A DNA stretch of 64,000 nt from the NCBI RefSeq assembly GCF_009674605.1, contig NZ_WKJO01000001.1, positions 1,674,001-1,738,000 on the forward strand. The letters run 5' to 3'. A program made the position numbers and the translations under genes. The notes beneath the pieces were generated by a model, which was given only the letters and a program-made list of their open reading frames with translations, had not been told where the DNA came from and searched no databases. Positions within the stretch are counted from its first letter, which is position 1. Every line of letters starts with the position of its first letter. This stretch comes from Haloferax litoreum (GTDB taxonomy: Archaea > Halobacteriota > Halobacteria > Halobacteriales > Haloferacaceae). Of the stretch, positions 27,115 to 34,403 are shown one piece after another.

Positions 27115-27948
27115 TCAGTCGGCGTCGTTAGTGACGGTGTCCCGCGGCACCGGGAGGCCACCACGGACGACGAGAGCGGCGGCGACGACGAGGACGAGTG
27201 CGGCGACTGTTCCGCCGAGGTGGGCCAGTTGGAGCGTCGGACCGTACACCTGTCTGCCGGCGATGAGTAAGGCGACGACGACGACGCTCGCGGGTGCGGT
27301 GATGAATCTGAGACGCCCGTACACGTCGGCACGGGTGGTGTGAGCGGCACTCGCCCAGAGTGTCGCGGCGACGAGGGCGGCGTAGGTTGCGAGGCCGACG
27401 ACGTAGTAGGTGGCCTGCGTCAGGGGGCCGAACGAGACGAAACTGTGTGGTGCGAGGACGAGCATGATGGGTGCGCCGACGAGTGCGACGCGGATGGCGT
27501 CGGCGACGCGGGGAATCCCACGGTCGGCGAGGCCCCACGCGGCGGCGGCGACAACGGCCGTGAAGATGGACGTGGCAACGACGTAGTGCGCGGTGAGGAT
27601 GACCCACTCGTATTCGGTGACGGTGAGTGCGCCGAGGACGATTTGGAACGGGAGAATCACGGTCGCGACGACGAGTGCCCAGCGGACCCGCGCTTGGACG
27701 CCTTCGCGCCACGCTTTCACCGTCGTCCCGAGGATGAGGAACCCGGTGAGCATGGCGACGAGGCGGTGGAACCACTCGATGAAACTGCCCCAGTTGGCGG
27801 GGAACAGGCCCAGGAACCCGTCACAGAACGGCCAGCGACCGGCACACGTGAGACCGGCACCCGAGGCGGCGGTGTAGACCCCGAGGACCATCAGGATGCC
27901 CGTCATCGCGGCGGCCCCCGCGAGGAGGCGGCGAAGCCGAGGTGTCAT
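27115..27948 (-). CDS. ctaA: Heme A synthase (COX15/CtaA family)
   Basis: A 277-residue integral membrane protein converting heme O to heme A for aa3-type terminal oxidases. Eight hydrophobic helices are predicted. The N-terminal half carries the cysteine pair Cys35/Cys42 (LTCAGRWPFCDG) and Glu58/His61 (EWFHRLVA). Further heme-ligand candidates are His in LTAHYVVA, APHSFVSF and LQLAHLGG. This is the CtaA pattern in the compact haloarchaeal length. Start at ATG 27948. Confidence 0.9.
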   Translation of the reverse strand: MTPRLRRLLAGAAAMTGILMVLGVYTAASGAGLTCAGRWPFCDGFLGLFPANWGSFIEWFHRLVAMLTGFLILGTTVKAWREGVQARVRWALVVATVILPFQIVLGALTVTEYEWVILTAHYVVATSIFTAVVAAAAWGLADRGIPRVADAIRVALVGAPIMLVLAPHSFVSFGPLTQATYYVVGLATYAALVAATLWASAAHTTRADVYGRLRFITAPASVVVVALLIAGRQVYGPTLQLAHLGGTVAALVLVVAAALVVRGGLPVPRDTVTNDAD

Positions 27949-28031: not shown

Positions 28032-29003
28032 TCACACTGCGTCGATGTGCAGGTCGACGACGCGCCCTGTTTCGTCGATTGTCACGTCGATTCGGTCACC
28101 ATCGACAGCGGCGCTGACCCGGATTTCGAGCGGGTCTTCGGAGGCGACGCGCCGTTCGAGGATGGTCTTCGAGACGGTGAGCCAGTCGTGGCCCCACACG
28201 TCGTCGTGGCCACGCTCGTGATAGAACGCCTCTGCGGACGGGTGAGTGAACATCTGGCTCTCGCACGGAATCTCGAAGTTCATGTGGCAGATGTCGCAGA
28301 TGTGGTGGAACCGAATCGGGAATATCGTGTGACACGTCGAACACACGTGGCCGTCGGGAGCATCGTGACTCTCACAAATCGACGGTGTGATGCTGACCGT
28401 CCCGGTACACTCGGGACAGACACCCTCCATCATCGTCTGGAACTTGTGATTAATCCAGATTTGTTGTGCTTCGTAGACCTGCTTCAGTGACCGATGTCTC
28501 AGACCGGTCGGCGGGAGAAACTCCGTCGCACTCAGGCATCCGCGTGGCATCCCAACCGTCTGGAATGCGCCTTCACAGGCGGTGCACCGGACGGCCAAGA
28601 AGTCCAGCGTTCGTTCGGTCCCGTACTCGAGTACGACCTGCCCACCACACAGCGGACAGGGGTCGTCGACGGGTTCGGAGTCGAACACGACGTCGCCACC
28701 GAACGACTCCGCCAGGACGGTTCTCATAGTCCGTTCGCCCGCCCGCGTGATGACGTACCCGTCTTCGGTCCGATGGACGAACTCGTCGAGCAGCTGTTTG
28801 AGGTGGTAGTTGAACTGTGATCCATCTTTCACCCCGACCCGTCTCCGTAGTTCTGCGAACGAGAGCGTCTGCTGTGGGATGTGTTCAGTCGGCTCTCGTT
28901 CTTTCCAGAGTTCGTGCAGAATCCCGAGTCGGGTCTGGTGGCCGAGGGCCGCAAAGGCTGCCTCCGGGCCGGTGCCCGCGCCTCGTGATATATGGACTGC
29001 CAA
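28032..29003 (-). CDS. Winged-helix regulator with multiple zinc knuckles
   Basis: A 323-residue ArsR-like DNA-binding protein. The winged helix covers about residues 12-95 (FAALGHQTRLGILHELWK, then QFNYHLKQLLDEFV). It is followed by Cys-rich ribbons: CPLCGG with CTAC, CPECTG, CSTCHTIFP and HHICDICHMNFEIPC, making several putative zinc sites. A C-terminal beta region (ISAAVDGDRIDVTIDETG-like) closes the protein. The start is an unusual TTG at 29003, chosen because AGGTGAG lies 6-12 bases upstream. A TTTATT at about 29052-29057 may be the TATA box. The signal sensed is unknown. Confidence 0.83.
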   Translation of the reverse strand: MAVHISRGAGTGPEAAFAALGHQTRLGILHELWKEREPTEHIPQQTLSFAELRRRVGVKDGSQFNYHLKQLLDEFVHRTEDGYVITRAGERTMRTVLAESFGGDVVFDSEPVDDPCPLCGGQVVLEYGTERTLDFLAVRCTACEGAFQTVGMPRGCLSATEFLPPTGLRHRSLKQVYEAQQIWINHKFQTMMEGVCPECTGTVSITPSICESHDAPDGHVCSTCHTIFPIRFHHICDICHMNFEIPCESQMFTHPSAEAFYHERGHDDVWGHDWLTVSKTILERRVASEDPLEIRVSAAVDGDRIDVTIDETGRVVDLHIDAV

Positions 29004-29261: not shown

Positions 29262-29704
29262 ATGAAGCAAGTGTGGCTCACGAGGGGGTTCGTGACGCTC
29301 TGTGTGGTGTGTGGTCTCCTCGTCGCCGGTGTCGGGCCGGTGGCGGCGGATGAAATAGCAACTGGGGACGCGGTGCCGTGCGACCTCCTATTCGAATCAG
29401 CGTACGCGGAAATCGATTCGCTCACGGCGGGGGTGTTGGTCGACTACGACAACGAAGTGGACGTAATCGCGTCGGTTCAGGCGATTGCGTCCCAACTCGC
29501 TTTCGACGCCGAACGGAACGAATGTTCGCCTGCATCGACGACTGCACCGGTGAACTAGCCGTCCGCTGGCGGCGACTCGTTTTCTGAGAAGCCGGTTCAA
29601 GCGGTGACGCTCACCGCCGAAGAACAGACTGTCGAAGCGTTCGGCAGGGATATCACCGACCTGTCGGCCAAGGCGCGGGCGGAATTCCGCGCAAGGACGA
29701 CCTG
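29262..29704 (+). pseudogene. Decayed secreted-protein gene (nonsense plus probable frameshift)
   Basis: The first 98 codons encode a clear Sec signal (residues 1-29, ending VAAD) and an acidic mature part with two Cys. A TAG at 29556-29558 stops the frame, but the same frame continues with haloarchaeal-type codons for 48 more residues (SFSEKPVQAVTLTAEEQTVE ...) to TGA 29702. From about 29672 another frame stays open and acidic (EAVDFFTDDADDDTAL) up to the next gene, suggesting a frameshift as well. No family recognised. The first part could still be expressed as a 98-residue secreted protein. Confidence 0.5.
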
Positions 29705-29839: not shown

Positions 29840-30946
29840 ATGAACGAGCGACTCGCATCTCGGGCCGAGCGACTCGACGCGTACCTCGACGACCACGACG
29901 TCGAGGCCGTCTGGTTCGCCCGCCCGAACTCGTTTGCGTGGCTTCTCGGTGGGGACAACGTCGTCGACCGTGACTCGCCGGTCGGCGTCGCCGCCGCAGG
30001 GTACGACGGCGACGAGTTCCACGTCGTGACCGACAACATCGAAGCGACCCGCCTCCTCCACGAAGAAGTCCCGCACGAGGACGTTCGAATCCACCAGTAC
30101 CAGTGGTACGAAGGCTCTCTGGCCTCGGGCGTCGCCACCGTCTCACCGACGCCGGCAGCGGCCGATTTCGACGTTCCGGGCTTCGCCGACGTGGACGCCG
30201 CTGAACTCCGGCAACCACTCTCTGACGACGATATCGACGCGTATCGGGAACTCGGCCGCGACGTGGCGAGCGCCGTCGAACGGGTGTGTCGGGAACTCGA
30301 ACAGGAAGATTTGGAGACTGAAGTCGCCTCGGGTCTCCGGGTCACGCTCGGAGCCATGGGCATCGAGACGCCCGTCACCCTCGTCGGCGGCAGTCGACGC
30401 GCCCAGAAGTACCGCCACTACACGCCGAAACAGGAACGCCTCGGTGACTACGCCCTCGTCTCCGTCACGGCCCAGCGAGACGGCCTCTACGCGAGTTGTA
30501 CGCGGACCGTCGCATTCGACGCACCCGACTGGCTGGAGTCGCGTCACGAGAAGACGATGCGCGTCGAGACGAACGCACTCGCGGCGACACAGCGAGTAGC
30601 AGACGACGGTGGAACCGCCGGCGACGTGTTCGACGCCATCCGCGACGCCTACGACGCCGTCGGAGAGTCCGACGAGTGGTTGAACCACCATCAGGGAGGT
30701 GCCGCCGGGTTCGCCGGACGCGAGTGGTTCGCGAAACCCGATGCCGACGACCCAGTTCTCGAACCGATGGGCTACGCCTACAACCCGACCATCGAGGGCG
30801 CAAAGAGCGAGGACACCGTTCTCGTCACCGGCGACGACGTCGAAGTACTGACCACGACGGGGCAGTGGCCGACGCAGACTGTCACGGACGAGACCGGTTC
30901 GGTCGAACTCGAACGGCACGGAATCCTTCACCTCGATACGGAATAA
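29840..30946 (+). CDS. M24-like (Xaa-Pro peptidase homologue) protein with altered metal site
   Basis: A 368-residue protein with the creatinase N-terminal domain (1-130) and the M24 pita-bread fold. Compared with prolidase, the two metal Asp residues are replaced by Ser (VIDLG becomes LVSVTA, NSDITR becomes YASCTR), and the first metal Glu (TIEPG) becomes Asn (AYNPT). The His (NHHQGG) and last Glu (KSEDTVLV) remain. The HHQGG/NPTIxGxKSEDT pattern marks a subfamily common in haloarchaea and usually annotated as Xaa-Pro peptidase. Catalysis by the usual dinuclear mechanism is doubtful; a creatinase-like metal-free hydrolase or a binding role is possible. Confidence 0.85.
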   Translation: MNERLASRAERLDAYLDDHDVEAVWFARPNSFAWLLGGDNVVDRDSPVGVAAAGYDGDEFHVVTDNIEATRLLHEEVPHEDVRIHQYQWYEGSLASGVATVSPTPAAADFDVPGFADVDAAELRQPLSDDDIDAYRELGRDVASAVERVCRELEQEDLETEVASGLRVTLGAMGIETPVTLVGGSRRAQKYRHYTPKQERLGDYALVSVTAQRDGLYASCTRTVAFDAPDWLESRHEKTMRVETNALAATQRVADDGGTAGDVFDAIRDAYDAVGESDEWLNHHQGGAAGFAGREWFAKPDADDPVLEPMGYAYNPTIEGAKSEDTVLVTGDDVEVLTTTGQWPTQTVTDETGSVELERHGILHLDTE

Positions 30947-31077: not shown

Positions 31078-33333
31078 ATGGGACTGGACGACGACTCACG
31101 GGACTATCACCGGCAAGACCCGCCGGGTAAAATCGAGATTGCGACGACAAAACCGACGAACACACAGCGAGACCTGAGCCTCGCGTATTCGCCCGGCGTG
31201 GCGGCACCGTGCCGTGACATCGCGGACGACGAAGACGCAGCGTACGAGTACACCTCGAAGGGCAACCTCGTCGGTGTCGTCTCGAACGGGACGGCCGTCC
31301 TCGGCCTCGGAGATATCGGCGCACAGGCGTCCAAACCCGTCATGGAGGGGAAGGGCGTCCTGTTCAAGCGCTTCGCCGACATCGACGTGTTCGACGTCGA
31401 ACTCGACATCACCGACGTGGACGACTTCGTCGCCGCCACGAAGGCCATGGAACCGACGTTCGGGGGCATCAACCTCGAAGACATCAAAGCGCCGGAGTGC
31501 TTCGAAATCGAGCAACAACTCCGCGAGCAGATGGACATCCCCGTCTTCCACGACGACCAGCACGGCACGGCCATCATCTCCGGTGCCGCCCTGCTCAACG
31601 CGGCGGACATCGTCGACAAGGACCTCGACGACCTCGAAATCGTCTTCTCTGGTGCGGGCGCGTCTGCGCTCGCGACGGCACGGTTCTACGTCTCACTCGG
31701 GGCGAAGAAAGAGAACATCACGATGTGCGACTCCTCGGGTATCATCACCGAGTCGCGTGTCGAGGCGGGCGACGTCAACAAGTACAAAGCCGAGTTCGCT
31801 CAGCCAGTCGACGAGGGTGACCTCGCGGACGCGATGGCCGGTGCGGACGTGTTCGCCGGCCTCTCCGTCGGCGGCATCGTCTCCCAAGAGATGGTCCGGT
31901 CGATGGCGAACGACCCAATCATCTTCGCGATGGCGAACCCGGACCCCGAAATCACCTACGAGGACGCCAAGAGTGCCCGCGACGACACGGTCATCATGGC
32001 GACGGGTCGCTCTGACTACCCGAATCAGGTGAACAACGTCCTCGGGTTCCCGTTCATCTTCCGCGGCGCACTCGACGTGCGTGCGACGGAGATAAACGAG
32101 GCCATGAAGCGTGCCGCCGCCGAGGCACTCGCCGAACTCGCCCGACAGGACGTGCCCGACGCCGTCGTCAAAGCCTACGGCGACCACCCACTCCAGTTCG
32201 GTCCCGACTACCTCATCCCCAAACCGCTGGACCCCCGCGTGCTGTTCGAAGTCGCACCCGCCGTCGCACAGGCGGCGATGACCTCCGGTGCCGCCCGCAA
32301 GCGCCTCGACATGAACGAGTACCGCGAACGCCTCGAAGCGCGTCTCGGGAAGTCCCGCGAGATGATGCGCGTCGTCCTCAACAAGGCGAAGTCGAACCCC
32401 AAGCGTGTCGCTCTCGCCGAAGGGTCCAACGAGAAGATGATTCGCGCGGCCTACCAGATGCAAGAAGAGGGTATCGCCCACCCCATCCTCATCGGTAACA
32501 CGAAGGTCATCCTCCGGAAGGCCGAGGAACTGGGCCTCGACTTCGACCCCACCATCGCCAACCCGCGTGACGGCGAGTGGGACCACTACGCCGACCGACT
32601 GTACGACCTCCGCAAGCGCAAGGGCCTCACGGAATCTGAGGCCGCAGAACTCGTCCGCCGCGACTCCAACTACTTCGCCAGCGTCATGGTGGAGATGGGC
32701 GACGCCGACGCGATGCTCACGGGGCTGACTCACCACTACCCCGGTGGACTTCGCCCGCCGCTACAGGTCATCGGCACGGCCGAAGACGCGAACTACGCCG
32801 CCGGTGTCTACATGATGACGTTCAAGAACCGCGTCGTCTTCTGCGCCGACACGACGGTCAACCTCGACCCCGACGAGGAGATTCTCGCAGAGATTACGAA
32901 ACACACGGCCGAACTGGCCCGTCGGTTCAACGTCGAACCGCGCGCCGCACTCCTGTCGTACTCCAACTTCGGCAGTGTCCGCAACGAGGGCACCGCCAAA
33001 CCCCGCGACGCGGCCAATCTGCTGCAAGACGACCCAGAGGTGGACTTCCCCGTCGACGGCGAGATGCAGGCCGACACGGCACTCGTCGAAGACATCCTCA
33101 CAGGGACCTACGACTTCTCGGACCTCGACGAACCGGCGAACGTCCTCGTGTTCCCGAACCTCGAAGCGGGCAACATCGGCTACAAACTCCTCCAGCGCCT
33201 CGGCGGCGCAGAGGCCATCGGCCCGATGCTCGTCGGCATGAACAAGCCAGTGCACGTCCTCCAGCGCGGTGACGAAGTGAAGGACATCGTCAACCTCGCG
33301 GCGACAGCCGTCGTCGACGCGCAAGAGGAGTAA
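31078..33333 (+). CDS. maeB: NADP-type malic enzyme with phosphotransacetylase-like domain
   Basis: A 751-residue fused protein. The N-terminal malic enzyme part (about 1-410) decarboxylates malate to pyruvate with reduction of NAD(P). It contains the catalytic Tyr ([11 protein letters not shown]), Lys ([11 protein letters not shown]), metal-binding EQQ...FHDDQHGTA and the nucleotide fold [16 protein letters not shown]. The C-terminal part (about 425-750) is a phosphate acetyltransferase-like domain ([18 protein letters not shown] ... [19 protein letters not shown]), as in MaeB proteins where it binds acetyl-CoA and regulates activity. It links the TCA cycle with gluconeogenesis and lipid precursor supply. 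Confidence 0.96.
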
Positions 33334-33616: not shown

Positions 33617-34252
33617 CTAGTCGTCGCTTGCGTGCCCTTCGCACCGCGATGGTGGGAGATAACTCACGTCGTTGTCCGATTCGAATCCGAGTGGTTCCGG
33701 GAGCACACATCGGTCTGGTTTCCGATTGACGTGTTCGTACTCTCTCGGTGAGTTCGCGAGTGGATGTGCCGGGTTCTCCCGACTGTCGATGCGGGCGGCG
33801 CGGACTTCCCCGAAGCCGGCGATTCGCGCTTGAATCCCCCGCCAGTGGTGTTCACTGCCTGTGGGGACGACGATTCGTTTCGGCGACTTCCAGTCGGGGT
33901 GGTCTCCGGCGAGCACCGCGTTGTTGACGTTCGCGGCCAGGTCGTCGTGGTCGACGAGGACGCCGACCCGGGCACCCGGCGGTGCACGGTGGGCGAGTAC
34001 GTCTAACCCGAGGTGGAGCGCGCGATACTCGGAGATATTGTTGTTCGGCGCAACGTCTTGGAATGCGATACGGGCGACTCGCTCGCCGTCACGGGTCTCT
34101 ATTACGACACCGAGTCCGCCGCCGTTCGGTCGATACGACCCGTCCGTCGCGACGTAGAAGTGACGGTGATGGGTCCGCGGCGGGTGCGCGATGTGCGGCG
34201 TTGGCGACTCGTCGAACAGGTCCCTGAGGGTGGGACGGCCGGTCACGGCCAT
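33617..34252 (-). CDS. RNase H-like (type 1) protein
   Basis: A 211-residue protein with the RNase HI fold at about 35-180. Active-site positions: Asp in YVATDGSYRPNGGG, Glu in NISEYRALHLGL and Asp in VLVDHDD. The fourth position, normally Asp in the RxxNxxADxLA motif, appears as His (RENPAHPLA). RNase HI enzymes remove RNA from RNA-DNA hybrids. The C-terminal 40 residues are Arg/Asp-rich and not part of the core. A CTTATTA on the minus strand about 28 bases upstream of ATG 34252 supports a leaderless start. Confidence 0.82.
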   Translation of the reverse strand: MAVTGRPTLRDLFDESPTPHIAHPPRTHHRHFYVATDGSYRPNGGGLGVVIETRDGERVARIAFQDVAPNNNISEYRALHLGLDVLAHRAPPGARVGVLVDHDDLAANVNNAVLAGDHPDWKSPKRIVVPTGSEHHWRGIQARIAGFGEVRAARIDSRENPAHPLANSPREYEHVNRKPDRCVLPEPLGFESDNDVSYLPPSRCEGHASDD

Positions 34253-34403
34253 ACGAATCGTTCCGCGATGGGAGCTAATAAGCGTACCCCGTGTTGGAGG
34301 TGGGAGCACACTATGTTATATGGTACCGATATATAGAGTCGGTTCTGAAGATTCGCCGTCCGTAGGCAATGGATATAAGAACGACCGACTCAATCTACCT
34401 GCG

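Follow-up and report, generated by a model that had tools for sequence, protein, structure and literature searches.

Among the closest described systems, M24B prolidases and Xaa-Pro aminopeptidases carry five canonical metal ligands, Asp-Asp-His-Glu-Glu, and creatinase shows that the M24 fold also exists in a metal-free form. Spt16 and EBP1 are eukaryotic binding modules. EBP1 is described in the accessible text of one report as a non-peptidase with the M24 fold (PMC11266112). The gene studied here lies within a 64,000-nucleotide stretch of the Haloferax litoreum genome (G000:C1:1674001-1738000; hereafter, the window). Its product is annotated in databases as an Xaa-Pro dipeptidase or aminopeptidase and belongs to what we call the HHQGG family, after a motif in the region of the former active site.

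The initial annotation of this open reading frame was correct in its coordinates, strand, length and frame, and the reading frame is real (Table 1). The 368-aa protein matched the Pfam M24 profile (PF00557) at 37.7 bits against a cut-off of 23 (E=2.4e-9); its Creatinase_N match was below the cut-off. Pfam detected no second domain, and neither SMP-30, PF10282 nor GalM (PF01263) gave a Pfam match at E-values up to 1. Against the PepQ equivalog profile NF040821 of NCBIfam, the protein scored 24.9 bits, with a cut-off of 630 bits. Orthologues in five Haloferax loci are 85–98% identical to the window protein, the copy in Haloferax profundi standing at 98%. A normal fold had been presumed, and AlphaFold2, run on a 17-row alignment, returned the M24 pita-bread fold with a mean pLDDT of 80.7, although the loop formed by residues 286–294, at the former active site, was modelled at a pLDDT below 50. 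Prolidases and Xaa-Pro aminopeptidases were the best Foldseek matches of the predicted fold, with creatinase, EutD/DoeA and Spt16 lower in the list, an order that is no evidence against creatinase-like chemistry. The best prolidases superimposed in VIA-align with Z-scores of 22–24 at 2.3–2.5 Å over ~215 residues of the catalytic domain (about 120–365). By profile match and predicted fold, the window protein is a member of the M24 superfamily.

The phmmer alignment with the Pyrococcus furiosus (Pfu) prolidase 1pv9 placed Ser208, Ser219, Gly287, Asn315 and Glu324 at the five ligand positions. The same Ser-Ser-Gly-Asn-Glu set was obtained with hhalign, comparing a 34-row family alignment with seven canonical haloarchaeal prolidases (probability 98.7, E=4e-16), and with MAFFT, in 51 of 51 rows. 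The motif HHQGG pairs with HSLGH or HRTGH of prolidases in both phmmer and hhalign, and Arg294 stands opposite the second catalytic His (Pfu H291). Following the 1pv9 ligand numbering, we take Pfu H280 to be a non-ligand His and Pfu H284 to be the metal His; the first His of HHQGG is opposite the former and Gly287 opposite the latter. The replacement of both metal Asp residues by Ser (S208 and S219) and of the first metal Glu by Asn (N315), proposed in the initial annotation, was thus recovered by phmmer and hhalign, and the last metal Glu is indeed kept. The metal His had also been counted as retained, which is wrong: because the first His of HHQGG pairs with the non-ligand His and the ligand position is occupied by Gly287, four of the five ligands are lost rather than three, and E324 is the sole survivor. 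Three other M24 proteins of the same genome have the full ligand set. Two further ones deserve separate mention: L003 (G000:C1:464203-464883, minus strand), with Gly, Glu, His, Glu and Ser at the ligand positions, looks non-canonical from its sequence, and L006 (G000:C1:648063-648530, plus strand), with Ser, Ala, Gly, Arg and Thr in the MAFFT alignment, seems to be a second possible case of metal-site loss, affecting all five ligands.

Table 1. Positions in the window of the HHQGG gene, its diagnostic residues and its conserved neighbours
Feature	Window positions	Strand	Evidence
HHQGG-family M24-fold protein, 368 aa	29840..30946	+	ORF, Pfam M24, predicted fold, Haloferax orthologues
R192-H193 (YRHYTP), with H193 present in all 34 rows of the broad-family alignment	30413..30418	+	alignments
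Ser208, position of first metal Asp	30461..30463	+	phmmer, MAFFT, hhalign
Ser219, position of second metal Asp	30494..30496	+	phmmer, MAFFT, hhalign
H283-H284-Q285-G286-G287 motif, G287 replacing the metal His; motif unchanged across archaea and bacteria	30686..30700	+	alignments, hhalign
Arg294, position of prolidase second catalytic His	30719..30721	+	phmmer, MAFFT, hhalign
N315-P316, Asn at first metal Glu position	30782..30787	+	phmmer, MAFFT, hhalign
K322-S323-E324, E324 the only metal-ligand position retained	30803..30811	+	phmmer, alignments, hhalign
ctaA (heme A synthase family, COX15-CtaA), the closest conserved divergent gene in many haloarchaea	27115..27948	-	Pfam, synteny
Downstream neighbour, a malic enzyme carrying a phosphotransacetylase domain	31078..33333	+	NCBIfam, synteny

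Eleven residues (S208, S219, H283, H284, Q285, G286, G287, R294, N315, K322 and E324) are invariant in all 51 rows of the haloarchaeal alignment, a regularity that chance would be far from producing. The ligand replacements noticed in one sequence extend to every haloarchaeal member aligned. These 51 rows are those remaining after removal of L031 and L032, whose match was split over two frames, of the repeat sequences L033–L035 and of the window copy itself (L007). The gene was detected in 223 of 293 Halobacteriales genomes (201 of the 255 good ones), and dN/dS values of 0.06–0.16 in eight of eight Haloferax pairs indicate purifying selection. Given the invariance in 51 rows, the presence in 201 of 255 good genomes and these dN/dS values, the ligand replacement is no local decay. 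In a phylum-wide sample, 39 of 294 genomes carried the gene, all but one within Halobacteriales. The exception, a distant member of the same phylum (L102; E=7.8e-52), lies on a 3,314-base contig (G352:C37), where contamination is possible, and groups with Pantoea in a quick tree (support 84).

Beyond the haloarchaeal chromosomes, tblastn searches against plasmids revealed family members in Thermus, Deinococcus, Pantoea and haloarchaeal plasmids, and a second search added Nostoc and Gloeothece. No relative was found in viral contigs. Invariant in the 34 rows of the broad alignment are W34, G37, E68, R71, E75, W89, E159, L181, R187, H193, P196, G215, R222, Y271, the HHQGG motif, R294, P300, N315, P316, K322, E324 and T326. 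S208 and S219 vary outside haloarchaea, yet none of 23 broad-family rows has Asp at either position. In a quick tree, in which the outgroup branches are long, the HHQGG proteins separate as one clade (SH-aLRT 99) from five M24 paralogues encoded in the same genome.

The window copy is of the ctaA/malic-enzyme type and lies outside any sugar operon. Two open reading frames separate ctaA from the HHQGG gene, a small Haloferax ORF at 29262-29558 on the plus strand, possibly secreted and with no Pfam match, and a DUF7347/DUF7351 protein at 28032-29003 on the minus strand, whose match to an HTH domain is weak; neither gave a tblastn match in the 20 regions compared for synteny. Further downstream, the ORF at 33617-34309, tentatively labelled RNase H, gave no Pfam match. 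We compared 38 of 39 haloarchaeal regions (in L136 the target was missed by the gene caller), picked to spread over families, with a second set deliberately drawn mostly from outside the ctaA synteny; genes were called with a home-made caller and the neighbours of HHQGG were annotated in part. A divergent ctaA neighbour, often with malic enzyme, was present in 17 regions, malic enzyme without ctaA in one, sugar or lactone genes in 13 (L092, L095, L121–L125, L127, L128, L130, L132, L133 and L140) and none of these in seven. The conserved ctaA pairing might have pointed to a role in heme A synthesis, but it was not seen in the other haloarchaeal families or the bacterial regions examined and is therefore treated as inherited gene order.

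The clearest cases among the 13 sugar regions are L140, L125 and L132. In L140, the HHQGG gene stands between KDG-aldolase-like and gluconate/galactonate-dehydratase-like genes, both below their cut-offs, and a KDG kinase gene above that of NF041332; in L125, it is accompanied by a KDG kinase (over the cut-off) and a KDPG aldolase. It adjoins a Gfo6 xylose dehydrogenase gene (over the NF041392 cut-off) in L132 and occurs with Gfo/Idh/MocA and GH13 genes in L092 and L121. A PF10282 or SMP-30 lactonase gene was found near HHQGG in two places, L133 and the plasmid locus L118.

Among 18 plasmid regions, taken from two tblastn searches with 37 matching plasmid records each and including four Thermus and two Pantoea regions that are not independent, 17 had sugar genes within 5–9 kb of HHQGG, judged by product names. 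Some of these labels depend on a single gene (malQ in L111, glucoamylase in L112) or on genes named as transporters, regulators and oxidoreductases (L106 and L119); the one locus lacking sugar genes, L115, is a ctaA-type copy. Six control regions around canonical plasmid prolidases comprised one sugar-acid cluster, two with trehalose-phosphate synthesis and three with neither, that is, one of six with sugar genes, or three of six if trehalose-6-phosphate synthesis counts. In Thermus, the gene order is xylF, permease, ATPase, ROK, xylA, xylB, HHQGG and Gfo/Idh/MocA, with an SDR gene added in two of three cases. The Deinococcus locus has an aldehyde dehydrogenase beside a fucose/tagatose cluster, and the Pantoea locus reads ROK, MFS, GMC oxidoreductase, HHQGG and SDR. 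Haloarchaeal plasmids have arabinofuranosidases, sugar-binding-domain proteins, sugar ABC transporters, MR/MLE, FAH and Gfo6 nearby. The cyanobacterial genes, on a Gloeothece plasmid (L112) and a Nostoc plasmid (L111), are near a glucoamylase gene or adjoin malQ, and a type I-D CRISPR-Cas locus lies close to one of the two.

The HHQGG gene also co-occurs with glucose dehydrogenase, scored as present at a PF16912 match of E<1e-70, with weaker matches scored absent. Of 99 Halobacteriales genomes, 57 carried both genes, nine only HHQGG, six only the dehydrogenase and 27 neither (Fisher P=3e-11, a count uncorrected for phylogeny, like the two that follow). The corresponding figures were 52, eight, five and 15 in 80 good genomes (P=6e-7) and 19, two, three and 10 when genera were scored by majority (P=1e-4). 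Urease, used as a control family, showed no co-occurrence with HHQGG (P=1). Known lactonases, surveyed as the SMP-30 and PF10282 families, were uncommon in the 99 genomes: SMP-30 gave strong matches in 11 (19 including partial ones) and PF10282 was present in seven. Canonical aldose 1-epimerase (GalM) was detected in none of them at E 1e-10, though many carry glucose dehydrogenase. Among the 63 dehydrogenase-positive genomes, 53 lacked both SMP-30 and PF10282, and 47 of these 53 have HHQGG. HHQGG is also present in each of the 10 that have a known lactonase; together with L133 and L118, this does not suggest simple mutual replacement. For haloarchaeal glucose catabolism, the accessible part of one study reports no recognizable gluconolactonase and suggests a novel mechanism (PMC3404096), and a pentonolactonase of Haloferax volcanii is cited in the accessible parts of two others (PMC9795676 and PMC8551123).

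Taken as a whole, these observations make it probable, if only just, that HHQGG proteins are an undescribed M24-fold family in which the canonical metal site is gone and a polar pocket acts on a carbohydrate substrate, putatively an aldose or aldonolactone. In place of the lost dinuclear metal site, the family would use a conserved polar pocket formed by H193, H283, H284, R294, N315, K322 and E324, probably joined by E68, R71, E75 and W89 of the N-terminal domain. The sugar role suggested by gene context is well supported for the family as a whole and less so for the window copy, which is of the ctaA type like those at 17 of the 38 loci; the seven loci with neither kind of neighbour, the six dehydrogenase-positive genomes without HHQGG, the nine HHQGG genomes without a strong dehydrogenase match and the low-confidence loop at residues 286–294 also count against the carbohydrate explanation. 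As the leading candidate reaction, we tentatively propose hydrolysis of a sugar lactone, which aldose 1-dehydrogenases would supply and the HHQGG protein would open as an aldonolactonase, filling the gluconolactonase gap of the haloarchaeal semi-phosphorylated Entner–Doudoroff pathway. Against a lactonase, the xylA–xylB route of Thermus needs none and lactones also open spontaneously. The remaining weight within the sugar reading is divided between an aldose 1-epimerase (mutarotase) and other steps of sugar metabolism, and a mutarotase would fit the xylA/xylB and malQ/glucoamylase contexts as well as the absence of GalM. In its most specific form, which is a doubtful proposal, the family would turn an M24 fold devoid of the canonical metal site into a new class of enzyme that hydrolyses sugar lactones (or acts as an aldose mutarotase). 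It would provide the long-missing gluconolactonase-type step of the semi-phosphorylated Entner–Doudoroff and related pathways in haloarchaea, and the sugar clusters of cyanobacteria, Thermus, Deinococcus and Pantoea would share it.

The main competitor, to which we give a minor but serious chance, is that the protein is a pseudoenzyme without catalysis, in line with the binding protein offered as an alternative in the initial annotation. It would be an M24 module that binds sugars or proteins and serves as metabolite sensor or as scaffold for sugar or central carbon enzymes. The loss of four ligands and the variety of partners, from ctaA and malic enzyme to many sugar enzymes, agree with this, as does EBP1, said in the accessible text to retain only two of the five ligands (PMC11266112); however, the dense set of invariant polar residues (H193, HHQGG, R294, N315, K322 and E324 in 34 of 34 rows) better suits a pocket for catalysis or tight ligand binding, and there is no second domain according to Pfam. 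It is also unlikely that the sugar neighbourhoods are simply where accessory genes live and that the core haloarchaeal copy, including that of the window, works in a different pathway. The ctaA and malic enzyme synteny of the window, shared by many genera, and the one to three of six prolidase controls with sugar genes speak for such a division, but the copies in L092, L121, L125 and L140, from other families and about 56–62% identical to that of the window, are located amid sugar genes, and the association recurs in Thermus, Deinococcus and Pantoea. A rather improbable reading keeps the protein a metalloenzyme, with H193, H283, H284 and E324 as a new mononuclear site for hydrolase or isomerase chemistry, possibly on sugars, and so overlaps the carbohydrate-pocket explanation as to substrate. 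Three invariant His and one invariant Glu in the region of the old site would suit it, although the second His of HHQGG is at a non-ligand position and the loop was modelled at low confidence. That the protein is a genuine Xaa-Pro peptidase, as databases have it, is very unlikely: the fold and weak family-level matches are offset by the invariant replacement of four of five ligands, the PepQ score far under its cut-off and the three M24 proteins with intact ligands in the same genome. The central doubt of the initial annotation about a routine Xaa-Pro metallopeptidase is therefore upheld, as each aligned haloarchaeal member has only one of the five ligands left; the broad family and its link to sugar catabolism go beyond what could be noticed there.

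Most haloarchaeal genomes thus carry a gene annotated as a peptidase whose metal site is gone family-wide and whose company is sugar catabolism, and this gene is a concrete single-gene candidate for the missing gluconolactonase step. If the carbohydrate reading is true, sugar chemistry would join the repertoire of the M24 fold and many database entries would be corrected. We found no published description of the HHQGG protein in the literature on M24 proteins and haloarchaea, H. volcanii lactonases and Thermus xylose genes, in a search that covered few subscription papers. The Thermus xylose genes are described in one paper whose accessible part does not name the HHQGG gene (PMC5292009). The H. 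volcanii orthologue is perhaps HVO_2435, which adjoins the malic enzyme HVO_2436, a tentative assignment given that this species has two malic enzymes (PMC7746861) and that the ORF at 33617-34309 has no Pfam match; HVO_1309, an M24 gene whose 5′ UTR is spliced (PMC7714728), was also considered as a possible equivalent.

In comparison with known systems, the HHQGG protein shares with M24B prolidases and Xaa-Pro aminopeptidases (1pv9, PepQ) the two-domain layout, the pita-bread fold, the His that opens the HxxGH region and the final metal Glu, and differs in having Ser, Ser, Gly and Asn for Asp, Asp, His and Glu and Arg for the second catalytic His. The creatinase-like enzyme suggested in the initial annotation is half sustained: the protein does have an M24 fold without the metal site, and the ligand loss suggests that it binds no metal, but creatinase (1chm, 1kp0, 7yto), compared by fold alone, is a structural match (Z about 20) no closer than prolidases, and no creatine-related genes were named in the neighbourhoods examined. 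The ectoine hydrolase EutD/DoeA (6yo9, 6twk), likewise compared by fold alone, is an M24-fold small-molecule hydrolase with Z-scores of about 20–21, and differs in that no ectoine genes were named near HHQGG. With SMP-30/gluconolactonase and the PF10282 lactonase, which are beta-propeller folds, the HHQGG protein would have only the proposed pathway position in common. The Spt16 N-domain, among its structural matches, exemplifies the M24 fold in a non-peptidase; unlike Spt16 and EBP1, the HHQGG family is found in metabolic gene clusters.
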